Below are positions 23,989 through 40,083 of a stretch of 64,000 nt of DNA, in pieces. The DNA is from Lentibacillus juripiscarius JCM 12147 (lineage in GTDB: Bacteria; Bacillota; Bacilli; Bacillales_D; Amphibacillaceae). The stretch covers positions 39,367-103,366 of the forward strand of contig BBCA01000004.1 of the NCBI GenBank assembly GCA_001311805.1, in the 5' to 3' direction. The notes under the pieces are model-generated. The model did not search any database. It had not been told where the DNA came from and worked only from the letters and a program-made list of their open reading frames with translations. Made by a program: the position numbers and the translations under genes. How positions within the stretch are numbered: position 1 is the first letter of the stretch; the number at the start of each line of letters is the position of its first letter.

Positions 23989-25422
23989 CTAGGCAGCTTC
24001 AAGGTCCATTTCAATTTCGTTGGATTTATTCTGTTTAGCTTTCCGGAAGAACCAGATGGCAAAGACGATGGTTAAGATGATACCGCCAATATGTGACACA
24101 TCCAGTGAAAGGTTAAAACCAATTTGTGCGTTCAATATATAGACAAACACCATATCGGTAATAAACAATGCCGGAATAAGAGAAATCCAGTACCGCTTCC
24201 CTTTAACAAGCAGATACATGGTTGCAATCCAAAGCGCGAGTGATGCAGTCGTCTGGTTGGCCCAAGAGAAATAGCGCCACAGAATATCGAAATCAATTTG
24301 CGTTAGAATAAGAGAAATAACGAATAAGGGAACGGCAATGATTAAGCGATTCGTCACTTTCTTTTGATTGAATTTAATATAATCCGCTATAACAGAACGT
24401 GCTGCACGGAACGCTGTATCTCCAGACGTAATAGGAAGAACAATAACCCCAAGTACAGCAATTGTTCCGCCGACTGCACCAAGCAGAGTCGTAGCTGCCT
24501 CATTGACAACCGCTGAAGGTGTACCAGCATTAATCAGTTCGTTTAGCTGTTCCCCGTGGAAAAGGCTCATGGAAGCAGCAGCCCAGATCATAGCAATAAC
24601 AGCCTCTGCAATCATCATCCCGTAAAAATGTACCGCCCTTGGGACTCTTTTTGAACGGTACGAGAAATAATAGGTGTCTGCGTCGCATGGAAACCGGATA
24701 AAGCACCACAAGTTATCGTTAAAAATAACATGGGAAAGATTGCTAGTTTACCCGGATGCATATTTTCCAGTGTGAGCTCAGGAATTTCTGAACCATAACC
24801 AGAAGTAAACATGGTAATACCGACACCGAGTGTACCGATTAAAAGTGTTGCGCCAAGGATTGGATATATTCTCCCAATGATTTTATCAATAGGCAAAATA
24901 GTAGATAATAAGAAATAAAGAAAGATAATACCTATAATAATCCATAACGTTACCTGACCATCAAGTAAAACATGGAGCAAAGAGCCGGACGTGTCGCAAA
25001 AACTGTCCCTACCAAAAGAAGAAGCAACAGTGCAAAGGCATTAACCAAATGCTTGGAAAAATTCCCTAAAAACTTTCCGGCTAGTTCTGGTATATGTGCC
25101 CCTTTGTTTCGAATTGAAATCATACCAGTTAAATAGTCGTGAACGCCCCCTGCAAAAATGGACCCCAAAACAATCCAAAGAAATGCAACAGGCCCAAATA
25201 ATGCTCCCATAATCGGGCCAAATATGGGTCCTGTTCCGGCAATATTCAGTAATTGAATCATAGCGTTATTTGTTTTTCATAGGAACAAAATCCACACCGT
25301 CCTGATTAGCAATGGAAGGTGTTTTGCGTGAGTCATCTATTCCGAATGTCTTTTCAACAAATTTTCCGTAAATAAAATAGCCAAAAATTAATACAACAAT
25401 GGATATGAAAAAACGTTATCAT
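23989..25422 (-). CDS. CstA family carbon-starvation/peptide (pyruvate) transporter
   Basis: About 475 residues, at least 11 membrane helices. Segments: GYFIYGKFVEKTFGIDD and TPSIANQDGVDFVPMK near the N-terminus, LLNIAGTGPIFGPIMGALFG, FAGGVHDYLTGMISIRNKG, GALSGFHATQTPIISR, LPITSGDTAFRAARSVIADY, SWANQTTASLALWIA. Extra T near 25410, extra A near 25270, missing T near 24970 and 24645 split it; all correct to a continuous protein. Start ATG 25422. CstA proteins take up peptides or pyruvate; which applies here is unclear. Confidence 0.9.
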
Positions 25423-25507
25423 GTCTCTGTCCCCTTGTTTAATCATGATGTGCAACCGGTTACATAAAGATTATACCACTATTTAAACGACAAAAACAAC
25501 CATATTT

Positions 25508-25586
25508 TATAGGGACGCGGTGACGGCCCACCAAATTTTATAGGTACCCATCAGGCAAAAGGAACGCGGGCTACCCGCGTCCCTAC
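25508..25586. repeat. degenerate REP-like element
   Basis: GGGACGCGGTGACGGCCC at the left and GCGGGCTACCCGCGTCCC at the right; the right end overlaps the stop codon of the PTS IIB gene. Confidence 0.6.
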
Positions 25587-25864
25587 TCAAGTTGTCTACT
25601 GATCTGGTCATAAACGTCTTCTGTTCCGATTCCTGTCAAGAGTGACACGCCATCGATAACGGTTGCCTGAATGTGGTCTGGTACAATGGTTGTCGATATA
25701 ATAAAGTCATAGTCATTCCATTTATGGGTTGTATCATTAATTTTCCCCTGATGAAGTTCCACTTGGTTCATCAGGTCATTTTCCAGCAGCCAATTTTTTA
25801 CTTTTCCCGTGACGATGGTCGATGTCGCAACGCCCGTACCGCAAACGACCAGCACTTTTTTCAT
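25583..25864 (-). CDS. PTS system galactitol-type IIB component
   Basis: 93 residues, intact. Phospho-Cys in VVCGTGVATSTIVTGKV, then TISTTIVP-like loop (FIISTTIVPDHI) and a C-terminal helix DVYDQISRQLE: PTS_IIB_galactitol family. It passes phosphate from IIA to the incoming substrate. Its ATG overlaps the IIC stop (TAATG), so translation is coupled. Last gene of the riboswitch-led transcript described in the findings. Confidence 0.9.
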   Translation of the reverse strand: MKKVLVVCGTGVATSTIVTGKVKNWLLENDLMNQVELHQGKINDTTHKWNDYDFIISTTIVPDHIQATVIDGVSLLTGIGTEDVYDQISRQLE

Positions 25865-27181
25865 TATTTTCCCCCTCTGATTTTATTAACGTACACTAAT
25901 CCGCTGAAAGCTAGTACACCAATGATTCCAATGCCGTACCAGTTAATAGTTTTCCCAGTCCGGCAAATAATCCTGTCGTCCAAACGGCTCCGTCCACAAG
26001 TGCGGAAATGCTGGTATAATCCTCCATATCAAAGTCAGCAGCTGCTGCCATGTCTGTAAATAATGGTGTGATCCATGTTGCGATATACAATCCAACACCA
26101 ATGTAGATCGTTGCTGCTATGACCGTTCGCAGTATATTCCCTCGAAAGACAGGCACCATCAGGCATACGAGAAATGGAATTGTCGCCAAATCACCAAATG
26201 GCAACACGGTATTGCCAGGCAACATGACCGCCAAAACCAATGTCACGGGGACCATGACGAGTGAAGCCGATAAAACAGCCGGGTGCCCGACCGATAAGGC
26301 GCTGTCCATGCCAATGTATAAATCCCTGTTTGGAAACCGCTTTTTAATCAAGTCACTTCCAGCCTCAGAAATAGGATTCAATCCTTCCATTAGCAGCGCC
26401 ACCATTTTCGGCATTAATAGCAAAACCGCTCCTGTTTTGATGGCTAATTGCAGCGTATCCGTTACGTTATAACCTGCCAACACACCAATAATAAGACCAA
26501 GCAACGTCCCAATAACAGTTGAATCCCCCAAAATCCAAACCGCTTTTGAATCGTTTCCGGACTAGCCTCAATCCTGTTCATTCCTGGAATGCGATCAAAA
26601 ACAGCATCAAGCGGTTTTGCCAAAATAGGAAGGTGCAGAAGCCGCATGCGGAAAAGTAACCCGTTTAAACCCAAAGTATCCTTCAATATCTGATGCCAGC
26701 AAATCTGCTAACAAGAAAATAACGAGAACATGTACCACTATGGTAAACAGCCCTAAAGCAAAATCATTCGTCATCGCAAAAACGAGGGACCCGGTAAACG
26801 CACAATGCCAATAGTTCCAAATATCGACGTTTAACGTTTTCGTCAACCCGACTATGAGCAGTAAAAAATTGACCCCAAGCCCAACTGGAATAGCCAAACT
26901 TCCTAAGGCAGTCCCATAGGAAATAGCCGCAGCTGCCGGCCAGCCGACATCAATGGTATGCAGATCAAATCCAAAGTGGTCGACCATCGATTTTGCCGCC
27001 GGCCCCAAACTGGTGGTCAATAACTCGATAATCAGGTTCAATCCAACAAAACCAATCCCGACAGTCAGGCCCGAATAGAATGCATTTTGGGCTTTGTTCC
27101 CAATAGCAAAGCAAAGATGAAAATAATAATTGGGAGCATGACACTTGCCCCCAAATCGACAAACCACTGTAAAACTTCCAA
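25864..27181 (-). CDS. PTS system galactitol-type IIC component
   Basis: About 440 residues, membrane permease of the GatC family. TTG start at 27181 behind GAGGGGG, VLQWFVDLGASVMLPIIIF, then helices, SAADHFGFDLHTIDVGWPAAA-like segment (seen as VDHFGFDLHTIDVGW), AMTNDFALGLFTI, LMPKMVALLMEGLNPIS (family hallmark), GHPAVLSASLVMVPVTL, and at the end NWYGIGIIGVLAFSGLVYVN. Breaks near 27080, 26650, 26535 and 25945 are single-base. IIA ends 3 bp before its start and IIB overlaps its stop. No sugar-catabolic gene or PTS regulator lies near it. Confidence 0.87.
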
Positions 27182-27184
27182 AGA

Positions 27185-27641
27185 CTACCCCCTCTCAGCA
27201 TTTTCTTCAACCAACTCCACCAGCCCCTTGCTCGTTTGAACGTTTTTTAATTCCCGGACAAACGAACGGTTCTGCAGGCATCCGAGTATGGTTTGCAGCA
27301 GTGTCAGGTGGGCATCCGCATCCTGCAAAGCAAGCATAAAATAAAGGTAACCTGAATTTCACGGCTGCGATTGCCCATCTCCTGAAACACTACCGGATTC
27401 TTTAAAGAAGCAAATGCGAGTTGTGGCTTTAAAACATACGTTCCGTCTGTATGGGGGATGGCCACCCCATATGGAGTCACCGGCAATCCTGTCGGGAATT
27501 GCGCTTCACGCTGCAAAATAGCTGTGGTGTGCATGTCTGTCACAGCCCCTTTTCCGCCATTAGCCCTGACAGGTGCCGCAATGCTTGTTCTTTTGTTTCA
27601 ACATGAAGGTCTGTGGTCAAAAAATCAGCCGGATCCATCAT
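27185..27641 (-). CDS. PTS system IIA component (fructose/galactitol type)
   Basis: About 152 residues. Domain PTS_EIIA type 2: EALRHLSGLM-like start (KEQALRHLSGLMAEKG), FPTGLPVTPYGVAIPHTDG with the phospho-His in AIPHTD, AFASLKNPVVFQEMG, and after a correction near 27350 LTLLQTILGCLQNRSFVREL. A missing G near 27553 hides the N-terminal part. ATG 27641 follows the thiF stop by 14 nt, with GGGGAG in between, so it is very probably co-transcribed with the thi genes. Receives phosphate from HPr. Confidence 0.86.
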
Positions 27642-27655
27642 CGTTGCTCCCCAAT

Positions 27656-28670
27656 CTAACCAAGAAACCTGTGGTAAAGAGACCTCGCTTCCGCTGCATC
27701 ATTTGTCCCGTGCACAAGCACACGGCCGTCCTTAAATAGAACCAGTCGATTTTTATCCGTTTTAAACTGGAGTAAAAATGCATTCTGTTCTACTTTTCCA
27801 AGTTTGGCTAAGTTGGCAGCAGTTACTTCCAGATCTCTTGTTTCTTTTGATGGCGGGCGGATCTGTACTGTATCCCGCCCGCAGAGCACTTCCGTTTTCG
27901 TGTGATCGTGATAAGCCAAAATGGGTACATGGCTTCCGGTCCGCACGACGGACAAGCATCTTTTTTAGCTTTTCGACGTTAATGGATGAATGGTGATTCG
28001 CCCATACATCGAAAGAGATCAGCTCCTGCCGCAAGTGACTCCAGTTTTCAGTAAGGATTTTCAGCGCTTCAGCAGTCTGATGCCCGACCACCAGCTGAAC
28101 GACCGGACTGATGACCCCGCCCGTGTCACAGGTCAGCCCGCCAATGGGAATGTCACCCAAGAGACAATGCAGGCACGGGGATTTCCCCGGAATGACGGCA
28201 TAACTCACACCATAACTGGCGACAATCGACCCATAAATCCACGGAATGCCGTATTTTTGAGCCGCGTCATTGATTATCATGCGGATTTCAAAATTATCGG
28301 TAGCATCCATGATTAAATCAACGCCAGGGACAAACTGCTCCATTTCAGCCGGCGTGATATCAACAATATGCGCCTCGATTGTCACATCAATGTTAATCGC
28401 TTCCAATCGTTCTTTAGCGGAAATGACTTTCGGGATATGGTTTTTGGCATCTTCCTCCGTATACAATTGCTGCCGCTGCAAATTGCTCCACTCCACGTAA
28501 TCCCTGTCGACAATGGTCATTTTGCCGACACCGGAACGAACAAGCACTTCCGCATTTCCAGTGCCAAGTGCACCGGCACCAATCACCAGGACATGCTTGT
28601 TCCCGAGCAGGACCTGCCCCTCTTCCTGAATACCGGAAAATAAAATTTGCCTGGAATAGCGTTCCACCAT
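27656..28670 (-). CDS. thiF: ThiF, sulfur-carrier adenylyltransferase
   Basis: About 338 residues. E1-like fold: RYSRQILFSGIQEEGQ, ATP-binding VLVIGAGALGTGNAEVL, DRDYVEWSNLQRQ, LIMDATDNFEIRMIIND, and the CXXC zinc pair in PCLHCLLGD with a second pair expected in the damaged stretch near 27960 (ACPSCG appears in the other frame). Adenylates the ThiS C-terminus. One shift near 27960. Its ATG overlaps the thiG stop by one base (TAATG). The C-terminal extension after residue ~245 is as in Bacillus ThiF. Confidence 0.93.
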
Positions 28671-29434
28671 TAGACACTGATTCCTTCCATTGGACTGCTC
28701 GCTGTGGCGTATCGTTTTGTTGGAATGCGCCCTGCTTCATAGCCAAGCCGGCCAGATTCTGCCGCAAGTTTCATCGCCTCAGCCATTTTGACCGGGTTGG
28801 ATGCAGCAGAAACGGCCGTGTTCAGCAGCACCCCGTCCGCGCCAATTTCCATTGCGGTCACCACATCTTTCGGGGAGCCGATTCCAGCATCGACAATGAC
28901 AGGAACCGTTAATTGCTCGATGATTAAACTTAAATTAAGCGGATTTATAATTCCCTGCCCGGATCCGATTGGGGAGGCACCCGGCATCACAGCATGTGCA
29001 CCCAATTCCTCCAGCCTTTGCGCCAGCACTACATCATCGGACGTATACGGGAGCACCGTGTAGCCTTCTTTCACCAATTCCTCTGTCGCTTTTAATGTCT
29101 CCACCGGGTCAGGCAGCAATGTTTTATCACAGCCAATCACTTCTACTTTAATCATGTCACAAAGCCCGGAAGCATTAGCCAGCTTGGCGGTGCGCACCGC
29201 TTCTTGTGCTGTTTTGGCACCAGCCGTATTTGGCAGCAGACTGTATTTTTCTACATCAAGTTTTTCCAGAAAATTCGGCTGAGAAGGCTCAAAAATATTC
29301 ATCCGGCGCACCGAAAACGTCAAAACATCTGTTCCAGAGACATTTACCGCTTCTTTTTGTACATCAAAGTCAGGGTACTTCCCTGTCCCCAAAAATAACC
29401 GTGAGTTAAATTGCTTTTCACCAACTGTTAACAT
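28670..29434 (-). CDS. thiG: ThiG, thiazole synthase
   Basis: 254 residues, intact. TIM barrel that joins DXP, ThiS-thiocarboxylate and dehydroglycine into thiazole phosphate. Motifs: [52 protein letters not shown] (Schiff-base Lys region), [43 protein letters not shown]. The thiS stop TGA is followed directly by this ATG. Confidence 0.97.
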
Positions 29435-29638
29435 TCAACCGCCTCCTACAAATTGTACTAATTCAATCTTATCTCCATCGGCCACTTCCTGTTGTGTGTG
29501 GTAGTCCTTATCCAGAATGTCGCCGTTATGTTCCACAATCACAACAGATTGGTCGATATTAAAATACCGCTTCACATCTGAAATGGTTTTCACTTTTTCC
29601 GGCACTTGAGCGCTATTGCCGTTGACAATGAGTCGCAT
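29435..29638 (-). CDS. thiS: ThiS, sulfur carrier protein
   Basis: 67 residues, ubiquitin-like fold (MRLIVNGNSAQVPEKVKTI, VVIVEHNGDILDKDYH, ELVQFVGGG) with the C-terminal Gly-Gly that carries sulfur. AAGGAGGTG precedes ATG. Directly upstream of thiG. Confidence 0.95.
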   Translation of the reverse strand: MRLIVNGNSAQVPEKVKTISDVKRYFNIDQSVVIVEHNGDILDKDYHTQQEVADGDKIELVQFVGGG

Positions 29639-29747
29639 ACGTTCACCTCCTTAATAGATTGGCAGACAGTCACATGCTCCCCGAGCTGGCACACAAGTGG
29701 ATTGTACATCCAAGTCAAAACACCCTCGCCCGCCAGATGCAAGCCCA

Positions 29748-30377
29748 TCACCACACCGCTTTTTCGTCCCCTACAGCTGCTAATTGACGCCGGTAGCTCC
29801 TGACAGCTTCCAATGGGTTCCTCGCCAAAAGCACCCCAGATAGAACCGCAATACCACTGGCGCCGGCTGCCAGGACATCCCGTGTGTTTTCAGGCGTTAT
29901 ACCACCAATTGCAATAACCGGAACCGTTGTACTCTCGGCGACGTCCTGCAGATTTTTCAGTCCTCGAGGTGCCAACCCTGGCTTTGAACCGCTTTCAAAG
30001 ATGTGTCCATACACCAGATAATCCGCCCCATGATCCGCGGCGTTTATCGCTTCATCTGTAGAATGAACCGAACAGCCTATCCGCAAGTGATCATAATAGT
30101 TTTTGACTTTCGGCAGGCCAATGCTTTGATGGGTCAGCTGAACGCCCCGTACTCCTGTGACATGTGCCACCGCAATCCGATTGTTCACAATAATCTTCTC
30201 GCTCGGTACGCCTTGGGACAAAAGTCTATCGATGGCTTCCACCATTCTTTATCCGTCCACGTTTTTTCACGAAGATGGACAAAATCAATATACGGATGTA
30301 TCTGTTTAAGAATAGAGACCAACTCACCAGCGGACTGCTGCCCAGTCGAAATAATATGGAATTCCCGAATCGCGCAT
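29748..30377 (-). CDS. tenI: TenI, thiazole tautomerase
   Basis: About 205 residues, TIM-barrel relative of ThiE. Opening REFHIISTGQQSAGELV, HPYIDFVHLREKTWTD, then after a shift near 30240 VPSEKIIVNNRIAVAHV, GVQLTHQSIGLPKVK, IGCSVHSTDEAINAADHGADYLVYG, VIAIGGITPENTRDVLAAGASGIAVLSG. It converts the ThiG product to the carboxythiazole phosphate form. Start is uncertain: ATG 30377 is out of frame by one base and directly against the AAGGGGGG site, so an indel in this G run is likely. Frames running further upstream enter the riboswitch terminator and are not real. thiO, found between tenI and thiS in B. subtilis, is absent; only 110 bp lie there. Confidence 0.9.
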
Positions 30378-30437
30378 CCCCCCTTTTGGCTTTGGATTGG
30401 GTTTGGATCTGGCCCGGCTAATAGTTTTCTGACAATA

Positions 30438-30475
30438 CAAAAACCACTTTCCATAGACGTCGGAAAGTGGTTTTC
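30438..30475 (-). terminator. riboswitch expression-platform terminator
   Basis: AAAACCACTTTCC pairs with GGAAAGTGGTTTTT around a 9-nt loop, 13-bp stem with U run, 40 nt downstream of the TPP aptamer. The 5' arm can instead pair with GGGAAGTGG at the 3' edge of the aptamer (nine pairs, one G-U), giving an antiterminator. Confidence 0.88.
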
Positions 30476-30514
30476 ACGCTTATTCAACCATGAATGAAAC
30501 GCTGCTCAACTACT

Positions 30515-30612
30515 TGCCACTTCCCTACGCCGGCCTTAACCGTCTCAAGTTCAAAGGGTCTCAAAGTCCATCACTCGATCTCAGCCTTTTTAAAAGGCAC
30601 CCCTAGTGGAAT
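30515..30612 (-). ncRNA. TPP riboswitch (THI element)
   Basis: Contains all conserved blocks of the TPP aptamer: ACTAGGGGTGCC, GGCTGAGATC, GAGACCCTTTGAACTTGA and GCCGGCGTAGGGAAG. Binding of thiamin pyrophosphate should favour the terminator downstream and shut off tenI-thiS-thiG-thiF and whatever follows in the transcript. Confidence 0.95.
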
Positions 30613-30667
30613 CTAAGGTTATAAAATTTTGTAAAAACAACATAGCACGAAAATTCAAAACTGTCAA

Positions 30668-30695
30668 CGGGACGTGGAGGGGCCCCGCATCCCTT
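30668..30695. repeat. REP-like fragment
   Basis: GGGACGTGGAGGGGCCCCGC then ATCCC, touching the stop of the gltS-like gene. Confidence 0.5.
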
Positions 30696-32106
30696 AACTT
30701 TTCTTCTTACCGAAGTACAAGAGCCCCATCAGCAGGCCTAAGAGGCACATGACGGCTGAAATAATGAGAAATGGAATCGGGCCGAATTCAAAGATGAGCG
30801 GTACGGACAGCGATGTTACAAGTCCGCCGCCAAGCAGTGGCTCAAAGACTAATTGTTTATAGCCAAAGCTTTCAAACGCGGGCGAATCATTTTTCGGATC
30901 AACCACACGCATAAGCAATAGTCCTGTTGCTGTTACACCCATTGATTGCCCGAAGTCCCCCATGGCACGTTCGAACCAATAGGTCGGAATAATACGCGGT
31001 GCTAACACAAGCACACCGAATATATTCCAGGTAATTCCCAATGCAGCTAGCAACAGGAATGGAATAATGTGGTTACCGATGACATCAAGCGAAATCGTAC
31101 CAATTGCCGTCACGACTAATATATCCAGCGCAAATCCCTGGATACGGCTGATCATCGGCCGGTCCAATATATGGTTCTGGTCTAGTTTGCTGAAAATCAG
31201 CTGCACAATAATACCGCCTATCATGGCCAAGGAAACAATGGAATATACGTCATAAATTCCGAGCCTGTCATAGCGCCCCAAGTGACGCTTTCCAGCCAAA
31301 TCAAAAATTGCAGTATGAGATAGCCGACTAACACAGCAAGTCCAACAAGCGCAAAATGCAGTGACAGCGGTTCAATCGATTCTGTCCTGACCGTCATATT
31401 AGCGGCAGGTTCCCTGTTCTGAAATTCCATAATCCCTCGTTTTCGCAGATCAGAGAAACCTTCGACGTTTTTGATTACTTGTGTCTTATTTCTTCTGACA
31501 CCCCAATGATCAAAATAATGCCGGCAACGACACCGGATATTAAACCGACTGTCGCCAAGCCAATGGACAGATCATATGCTTCCTCAAAGCCAAGATCCTT
31601 GAACGTCTCGCCCATGCCTGCCGCTGTTCCGTGACCACCTTCGAAGGCAATTTCAATTAAGGCTCCGGTCATCGGCGGCAGTCCGAAAAGCGGCGATAAA
31701 ACAAGAACAGCCAGCAATATCCCTAACACATATTGGCCCCAGCCCATCGTCCAGCCAAATGAAAGCTGTGCACCGGCTAAGCGCCAAATCTTTTTGATGC
31801 CGGGGATGGTCGTACCGAGGAATAAGGATGCAAACACAACATTAATCATCAGTCCGGGCAGCGTTCCCCAAACTTCTGTCACTTGCGGAGGGATGAGCCC
31901 ATTATTTAACAATGAGTCACTACCGGCAAACATTCCTAAAATCTTCCCCAACACTTGAGGACCGACCAATAACGCCAAAAACCTCCAATAATAGAAGAAG
32001 GCAAAAATAGATTCTGCGTCCACTTCACCCTGACGCGAATCCATTTACCAAGCAGTAAAAACAAACCGAGATAAAGCAATGTAAAGCCAATCTGTTCTGC
32101 TGACAA
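30694..32106 (-). CDS. GltS-like sodium:glutamate symporter family protein
   Basis: About 470 residues, 10-12 membrane helices, ESS family. Segments: WTQNLFLPSSIIGGF, LVGPQVLGKILGM, TLPGLMINVVFASLFLG, AFEGGHGTAAGMGETFKDLGF (GGHGT hallmark), MIGGIIVQLIFSKL, ISRIQGFALDILVVTAIGTI, ERAMGDFGQSMGVTATGLLLMR, and PLLGGGLVTSLSVPLIFEFG. TTG 32106 behind AAAGGGG is preferred to ATG 32133, which has no ribosome site. Breaks near 31990, 31495 and 31250 are single-base. Solute is probably an acidic amino acid or related anion. Confidence 0.86.
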
Positions 32107-39113: not shown

Positions 39114-40083
39114 CTGTTTCACCTCCTGGAGCCAGCATTTACTGGAATGATCAGATGTAACTTCGAATAAAGGCGGTTCTTTTTGCTTGCATGTCTCCAT
39201 TGCGAACGGACAGCGAGGGTGAAACCTGCACCCAGTGATTTCTTCATCAAGCCCTGGCATGGAACCTTGAATGACTTCCAGTTCCTGTGTTTCATCATCT
39301 ACGTCCGGAACAGAATTAAGCAGACCCTTCGTATATGGGTGCTGCGGATTTTCAAATATGCTTTCAACATCCGCAATTTCCACGACCTCACCGGCATACA
39401 TAACCATAACCCGGTCAGCTATTTCCGCAACAACGCCCATATCATGCGTAACAAAAACCACACCCATACCGATTTCTTCTTTAAGTTCATTCATTAAATC
39501 CAATATCTGGGCCTGTATCGTGACATCCAAGGCTGTGGTCGGTTCATCTGCAACCAATAATGACGGTTCACACGCCAATGCAATGGATATCATCACCCGC
39601 TGTCTCATTCCCCCGCTCAGTTCATGCGGGTATTGGGCCATCTTTTCCTTAGGATTCGGAATGCCGACCTTATCCAATAGTTCGATACTTTTTTTATTGG
39701 CTTCTTTTTTAGACATTTTTTTTTTATGAATGATTAATGGTTCCCGTAACTGATAACCAATTGTCAGCACAGGATTCAATGCAGTCATTGGCTCCTGAAA
39801 AATCATCGAAAGCGTGTTGCCTCTTAATTTCTCCATTTCCTCTTCCGTTTTTCAGTAAGATTGTCACCGTCCAAAGAATAGAACCACTGGAAATTTCACC
39901 GTTTGGCGGAAGAAGCCCCATAATAGATAACGATGTAATACTTTTTCCACTTCCAGATTCTCCAACAATACATAACGTTTCCTCTTTATCCACGGAAAAT
40001 GATATATTTCGAACAGCCGGCAGTTTGCCGTCGGCTGTTCGAAATTTGGTTTCCAAGTTCTCTACTTGCAATAATTGCGACAT
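39081..40083 (-). CDS. peptide ABC transporter ATP-binding protein (OppD/DppD)
   Basis: About 334 residues. Walker A CIVGESGSGKSITSLSI, Q-loop MIFQEPMTALNPV, signature ELSGGMRQRVMIAIAL-type (seen as GGMRQRVMISIAL), Walker B LLVADEPTTALD, H-loop FVTHDMGVV, zinc/iron-cluster-like C-terminal Cys-rich part GCRFHPRCPFAMETCK. A frameshift near 39850 separates the Walker A piece. ATG 40083, 9 bp after the binding-protein stop. Confidence 0.92.

Follow-up and report, generated by a model that had tools for sequence, protein, structure and literature searches.

A galactitol-type phosphotransferase system in riboswitch-headed thiazole operons of Bacillaceae, and its possible part in the import of 1-deoxy-D-xylulose

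A 64,000-nucleotide stretch of contig BBCA01000004.1 from Lentibacillus juripiscarius JCM 12147 (positions 39,367 to 103,366; hereafter the window) carries a thiazole operon headed by a thiamin pyrophosphate (TPP) riboswitch, and behind the last thiazole gene stand three genes for a galactitol-type phosphotransferase system (PTS). Judging from the gene neighborhoods and the gene content of related genomes, this thiamin-linked PTS (thi-PTS), predicted to be under control of the riboswitch, probably imports 1-deoxy-D-xylulose (DX) and so supplies 1-deoxy-D-xylulose 5-phosphate (DXP) to ThiG. The features of the locus, in window coordinates, are these.

30639..30667, minus strand: promoter-like site upstream of the aptamer (consensus 10/12, TG before the second hexamer), by itself not evidence of function
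30505..30614, minus strand: TPP riboswitch aptamer RF00059, 77.6 bits with the covariance model against a gathering score of 54.3
About 30433..30475, minus strand: intrinsic terminator (riboswitch expression platform), folding into a 15-pair hairpin with a T-run at its end
29748..30355, minus strand: tenI (thiazole tautomerase), 206 bits to NCBIfam NF005819 (TenI) on the longer piece, cut-off 251; frameshift near 30245
29435..29638, minus strand: thiS, TIGR01683, 55.8 bits, over cut-off
28670..29434, minus strand: thiG, PF05690, 359 bits
27656..28670, minus strand: thiF, PF00899 on the main piece and NF009123 on both pieces; frameshift near 27960-27997
27185..27641, minus strand: PTS IIA (EIIA_2 type), PF00359 (PTS_EIIA_2) 50.6 bits on the middle piece; frameshifted, aligned in three pieces to the IIA of the related locus L126 by tblastn
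25864..27181, minus strand: PTS IIC (EIIC-GAT), PF03611 116.3 and 127.5 bits on two long pieces against a gathering score of 24.2; several frameshifts
25583..25864, minus strand: PTS IIB, PF02302, 39.1 bits; open reading frame (ORF) intact
25556..25583, minus strand: terminator-like hairpin 3' of IIB, 10 pairs, GC-rich, followed by TTTT

A sequence-only reading had proposed this layout, with aptamer and terminator, tenI-thiS-thiG-thiF and IIA-IIC-IIB following one another on one strand, and Rfam, Pfam and NCBIfam matches together with folding bear it out. RF00059 is the sole Rfam match above its gathering score in the window, and the aptamer, with its terminator hairpin downstream, is predicted to be a TPP-regulated switch. 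The spacings reported there are correct as well: 14 nt separate the thiF stop (27656) from the IIA start (27641), 3 nt separate the IIA stop (27185) from the IIC start (27181), and IIC and IIB overlap in TAATG. The gap between thiF and IIA had been said to hold neither promoter nor terminator, and none appears there in a scan of 25400-30800, a noisy scan in which single hits carry little weight (11 promoter-like sites against 7.7 expected, 14 terminator-like against 5.6). The PTS had also been described as lacking a regulator and sugar catabolic genes nearby; it is flanked upstream by the thi genes and downstream, by eye, by a cstA-like gene, with none of the catabolic genes or the regulator of a galactitol operon. 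The window IIC is 70% identical to that of L126 over 404 residues (tblastn), and its two frameshifted pieces score 219.2 and 172.9 bits against the galactitol-specific IIC model TIGR00827, for which the whole-protein cut-off is 542.2. IIC, IIA and IIB match PTS families only, and none belongs to ThiW, ThiT, ThiXYZ or YkoEDC.

The arrangement is not confined to the window. In a contig scan with ThiG that kept the best 80 of 543 relatives, IIC-IIB directly follows thiF in three (Oceanobacillus rekensis, O. damuensis and Lentibacillus sp. CBA3610), each time in an operon headed by a TPP riboswitch. The 159 genomes of the family of the O. rekensis genome were taken as a wider sample. There, an IIC of this subfamily is found at E<=1e-120 in 29 genomes, so that a thi-PTS with a weaker IIC would be missed in the count. 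IIC lies behind thiF in nine genomes (G001, G002, G003, G062, G161, G055, G160, G035 and G066), all nine with a TPP aptamer at the operon head. IIA sits between thiF and IIC in some of these relatives and is absent there in others; that of O. damuensis is divergent and upstream, and in G066 tenA (PF03070) lies 3' of IIB. Three further genomes (G142, G143 and G144) have a TPP aptamer (69.7-73 bits) directly before IIC-IIB, each aptamer followed by its own hairpin and T-run; here the PTS stands apart from the thi operon, which has a separate TPP aptamer. Between aptamer and IIC in these loci (L141-L143) no convincing match to an IIA remnant was obtained. The sequence-only reading had suggested looking in other genomes for the PTS behind thiF or behind TPP riboswitches, and the nine thiF-linked and three TPP-direct genomes (the 12 carriers below) show that the neighborhood recurs, contrary to the absence from all relatives that it had named as refuting. 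Its broader idea, of a PTS within the thiamin regulon that turns a thiazole precursor into its phosphate, gains support from this recurrence and from the three separate TPP-IIC-IIB loci, and the identity of the precursor is argued below.

The two kinds of locus appear to have separate origins. In a tree of IIC sequences, the thiF-linked sequences, the window and a remnant in G058 (L140) form one clade (support 99/96). The three TPP-direct sequences fall elsewhere, adjoining an IIC linked to acetoin dehydrogenase-like genes (L139; 94/91, not among the starred nodes). A single clade for the thiF-linked and TPP-direct groups is rejected (delta lnL 62, p-AU 1.9e-5), in a test that presumes the group was named before the tree; labels were set beforehand by context, L140 alone being added after. 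Because this constraint is rejected, the IIC sequences indicate that the PTS was recruited into the thiamin regulon at least twice. The remnant itself consists of an IIC with a disrupted N-terminus and an IIB, without thi genes, in a genome without a ThiG match.

The gene content of the carriers points to a substrate. ThiG needs DXP, which normally comes from the DXP synthase (Dxs) of the methylerythritol phosphate pathway. ThiG is present in all 12 thi-PTS carriers, and Dxs (TIGR00204) is over cut-off in none of them, vs 18 of the 32 other genomes of the same search. Across the 159-genome family, in which 54 genomes have Dxs (53 over cut-off) and 81 have ThiG, a thi-PTS occurs in 12 of 39 genomes with ThiG and without Dxs, vs 0 of 42 with both (Fisher p 5.5e-5, uncorrected for kinship). 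Both recruitments took place in Dxs-less genomes. HMG-CoA synthase, which marks the mevalonate pathway, scores over cut-off in 12/12 carriers, 21/21 other Dxs-less genomes and one of eight Dxs-containing genomes searched. Bacillaceae synthesize pyridoxal 5'-phosphate via PdxST, without DXP, which would leave ThiG as the one known enzyme that uses DXP here. It is not obvious where ThiG-encoding bacteria of the mevalonate type get their DXP from, and the genomes studied suggest a specific answer that can be tested.

Gene order, riboswitch and terminator, recurrence, the two separate recruitments and the presence of HMG-CoA synthase but no Dxs match over cut-off in the carriers are features of sequence; that the genes are co-transcribed and respond to TPP, what the substrate is and where it is phosphorylated are what we infer. 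At low TPP the riboswitch would permit read-through of tenI-(thiO)-thiS-thiG-thiF into IIA-IIC-IIB. The PTS would then bring in DX, phosphorylating it to DXP, which ThiG would combine with ThiS-thiocarboxylate and dehydroglycine to form the thiazole. The PTS would thus replace the DXP supply missing in Dxs-less bacteria of the mevalonate pathway.

A second line of evidence comes from the nearest IICs outside the thiamin regulon (L130-L134 and L136-L139), which are clustered with genes for the E1-alpha, E1-beta, E2 and E3 subunits of a dehydrogenase complex. In eight of these nine loci E1-alpha and E1-beta are at least 75% identical to those of L131 (L134 ends at the contig end). A PRD regulator directly adjoins the PTS in five of the eight (L131, L136-L139), an L-ribulose-5-phosphate 4-epimerase-like gene is present in L130-L133, and no TPP riboswitch was found in the stretch read for any of the eight. 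E1 genes at 65% identity or more occur in 8/9 of the nearest loci vs 0/12 thi-PTS loci; the figure is one in ten for other loci of the family (L152; none in L140, L144-L151) and one in 12 for control regions with other GatC-type loci (L178). G005 and G006 have an E1-beta-like match about 14 kb from a GatC gene on the same contig. We read the complex, from its sequences, as acetoin-dehydrogenase-like: E1-alpha reaches 384.9 bits with the pyruvate dehydrogenase E1-alpha model TIGR03182 (cut-off 393.85), and close E1 homologues are mostly named thiamine-pyrophosphate-dependent dehydrogenase or pyruvate dehydrogenase, with one source naming acetoin oxidoreductase.

In L136-L139 the gene order is E1-E2-E3, PRD, IIA, IIC, IIB. 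No aldolase or sugar dehydrogenase was recognized there (four neighbors in L139 and two in L136 were scanned and are unrelated), which makes the product of the PTS a candidate substrate of the complex. A 1-deoxyketose phosphate would suit, since it has the methyl ketone and adjacent hydroxyl of acetoin. DXP is such an alpha-hydroxy methyl ketone, and by analogy acetyl-CoA and glyceraldehyde 3-phosphate could be the products of its cleavage by the complex. DXP is the only one of the compounds considered from the thiamin pathway that suits the acetoin-dehydrogenase context as well as that of ThiG. That a GatC-type transporter can handle a pentose is indicated by E. coli GatC variants that move xylose (PMC10989795, in excerpt). 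A wider picture, which we put forward more tentatively and which may well not hold in all its parts, is that environmental DX is scavenged for thiazole by Dxs-less mevalonate Bacillaceae through a TPP-controlled PTS recruited at least twice, and that sister PTSs feed an acetoin-dehydrogenase-like cleavage of DXP to acetyl-CoA and glyceraldehyde 3-phosphate, reversing the C-C bond made by DXP synthase. The loci L130-L133 and L136-L139 are, in their own right, a candidate route for 1-deoxyketose catabolism.

The substrate need not be the same throughout the subfamily. More distant relatives lie beside TIM-like, class II aldolase and UPF0047 genes, and for this reason the subfamily substrate is taken not to be uniform. 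The thi-PTS IICs fall in a subfamily distinct from the three further GatC sequences that served as outgroup. In an alignment, 41 columns are common to the thiF-linked, TPP-direct and acetoin-dehydrogenase-linked IICs, with the same residue in at most one of 12 other GatC sequences (eight of these columns are mostly gapped in the other GatC sequences). The aldolase-linked group has most of these columns, so they mark the subfamily and not one substrate. At the thresholds used, no column separates both thiamin groups together from the acetoin-dehydrogenase group; this would agree with a substrate that has stayed the same but is no proof of it.

Several observations weigh against DX import as the function of the thi-PTS. 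A thi-PTS is missing from 27 of the 39 genomes with ThiG and without Dxs. Five of these (G016, G145, G146, G147 and G149) have a subfamily IIC outside the thi operon, and at E<=1e-120 there is no such IIC in the remaining 22; another source of DXP must therefore exist in those 22. The 20 TPP-linked regions taken from six of the 27 genomes, which are not every TPP site of the six, revealed no substitute DX system, and no ORF in them matched the PTS references; by eye they hold ThiW-, ThiT-, ThiXYZ-, ThiD-, ThiM-, ThiE- and TenA-like genes. In G145 and G146 a TPP aptamer does lie about 6-7 kb upstream of the subfamily IIC and in the same orientation, the interval containing a PRD regulator gene along with others. 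The association between thi-PTS and Dxs amounts to few evolutionary events, and the window's own Dxs status we infer from its kin only. Several thi-PTS operons lack IIA, so that one encoded elsewhere would be needed in trans. Only half (10/20) of the wider-class loci hold E1 genes at the level of 65% identity or more, and close homologues of the PTS-adjacent E1 genes are also found elsewhere. ThiM (41 of 44 genomes overall) and ThiW (29 of 35) are common in non-carriers too, as is HMG-CoA synthase. Operon-type ThiO is missing from the window, and it was found neither in the carriers G035 and G066 nor in the non-carriers G116, G119 and G157, where the best matches are FAD enzymes about 25-30% identical (in G119, a fragmented assembly, none at E<=1e-30); in the absence of ThiO, ThiG must be supplied with dehydroglycine in some other way, for example by ThiH.

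Outside the 12 carriers, TPP aptamers occur in two of 29 subfamily loci (L163-L172 being excluded from the scan), at 6-7 kb from IIC. One of the two riboswitches (L148:2456-2552, plus strand) precedes a short-chain dehydrogenase gene; the other (L150:18837-18933, minus strand) precedes ORFs of 225 and 257 amino acids without family assignment.

It is unlikely that the PTS is an ordinary polyol or sugar system that became trapped behind thiF, is transcribed along with it by read-through and plays no part in making thiamin. The subfamily does occur elsewhere with sugar-type genes, and the variable presence of IIA among carriers would suit such a passenger. However, the PTS is kept after thiF in nine genomes and stands independently behind a private TPP riboswitch in three. 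In none of the 12 carriers does a reference PRD, E1-E3, epimerase or aldolase gene lie beside it (other neighbors were not all identified), the Dxs-less state is common to all of them, and G058, without a ThiG match, retains only the disrupted IIC and IIB. We came to disfavor this explanation in view of the TPP-PTS loci that stand by themselves and of the clade test.

Quite improbable, too, is the import of hydroxyethylthiazole (HET) as HET phosphate, the ThiE substrate, bypassing ThiM. HET and DX were the two candidates of the sequence-only reading. Of these, DX is favored by the lack of Dxs in all 12 carriers, and HET came out disfavored after the ThiM, ThiW and Dxs searches. The operon does belong to the thiazole branch, and a PTS could phosphorylate the primary hydroxyl of HET. 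Yet a ThiM-like match of 249-276 bits is present in 12/12 carriers (eight over the 256.4 cut-off, four at 249-256), and ThiW, the candidate HET transporter, is present in 11/12, all but G003. Since both are common in non-carriers, they indicate that HET salvage is covered and are not a mark of carriers. HET also has an aromatic ring, whereas the known substrates of GatC-type systems are polyols and sugars, and it would leave unexplained the lack of Dxs in carriers, the presence of ThiG in every one and the acetoin-dehydrogenase-linked nearest relatives. Import of hydroxymethylpyrimidine (HMP) or thiamin as the phosphate is highly improbable: both have a primary hydroxyl, their phosphates are pathway intermediates and TPP control would fit, but the PTS sits in a thiazole operon, TPP-linked loci of six non-carrier relatives include (by eye) ThiT-like and ThiXYZ-like genes, and either compound would leave the links to Dxs and to acetoin dehydrogenase unexplained.

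A PTS that imports DX under TPP control would resemble several known systems in part. With the galactitol PTS (GatABC; PF03611, TIGR00827) it shares three subunits with an EIIC-GAT permease, and the O. rekensis IIC matches the solved galactitol IIC 9u82 at E 5e-113; unlike it, the thi-PTS has a TPP riboswitch and thiazole-gene partners, with no adjoining galactitol catabolic genes or PRD regulator seen. The known TPP-regulated transporters are ThiW, ThiT, ThiXYZ and YkoEDC. They have in common with the thi-PTS a TPP riboswitch and a proposed import of thiamin or a precursor, but none is a PTS, which would phosphorylate its substrate on entry. The acetoin-dehydrogenase-linked PTSs (L130-L133, L136-L139) are among those with the closest IICs and have the same predicted product, DXP; they differ in their E1-E2-E3 cluster, in the PRD gene beside most of them, in having no TPP riboswitch and in their proposed catabolic role. 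To our knowledge they have not been described. E. coli XylB (xylulokinase) is a cytosolic ATP kinase, unlike a PTS. Its salvage of DX likewise yields DXP (PMC3424233, in excerpt), and an excerpt of PMC3781023 gives the E. coli DX transporter without a name. The words phosphotransferase and galactitol are absent from the main text of a survey of riboswitch regulons whose gene lists stand in its supplements (PMC3766115), and among the matches listed from the open-licence PMC literature no title or abstract opening has a DX PTS or a TPP-regulated PTS. The component families are known; the combination and the proposed role are new to us. If the proposal is true, a vitamin regulon includes a PTS, DX has a named transporter and joins HMP and HET as a scavenged thiamin precursor, and the acetoin-dehydrogenase-linked operons are a catabolic route for DX.

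In the window itself, tblastn mapping shows frameshifts splitting tenI (the TenI of L126 aligns across two frames), thiF, IIA and IIC. The breaks in IIC lie (by eye) within short homopolymers or next to them, which points to an error of sequencing or assembly more than to decay. Many ORFs between 23989 and 36439 are split in the same way, by eye including cstA-like and ubiB-like ORFs and the symporter-like ORFs at 30694-32044, a pattern that indel errors in an assembly would produce. The window has no thiO in the tenI-thiS interval (29639-29747), the other four genes of the order tenI-thiO-thiS-thiG-thiF being present; in seven of the nine thiF-linked relatives thiO lies between tenI and thiS.

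Some further neighborhoods deserve mention. Upstream of the TPP-PTS in two of the TPP-direct loci lie, by eye, a permease gene and a cytosine-deaminase-like gene (L141:5527-8261, L142:5543-8280); the first of these ORFs begins with a PyrR binding site (RF00515). A 613-amino-acid ORF and matches to group II intron RNA are found just upstream of the thi operon in another locus (L125:2112-4564). In Lentibacillus halodurans a TPP riboswitch (L029:5373-5479, minus strand) lies directly upstream of a lipoate-protein-ligase-like gene (PF21948; 4412-5290, minus strand) and, by eye, of a lipoyl-synthase-like gene, so TPP control of lipoate genes is possible there.

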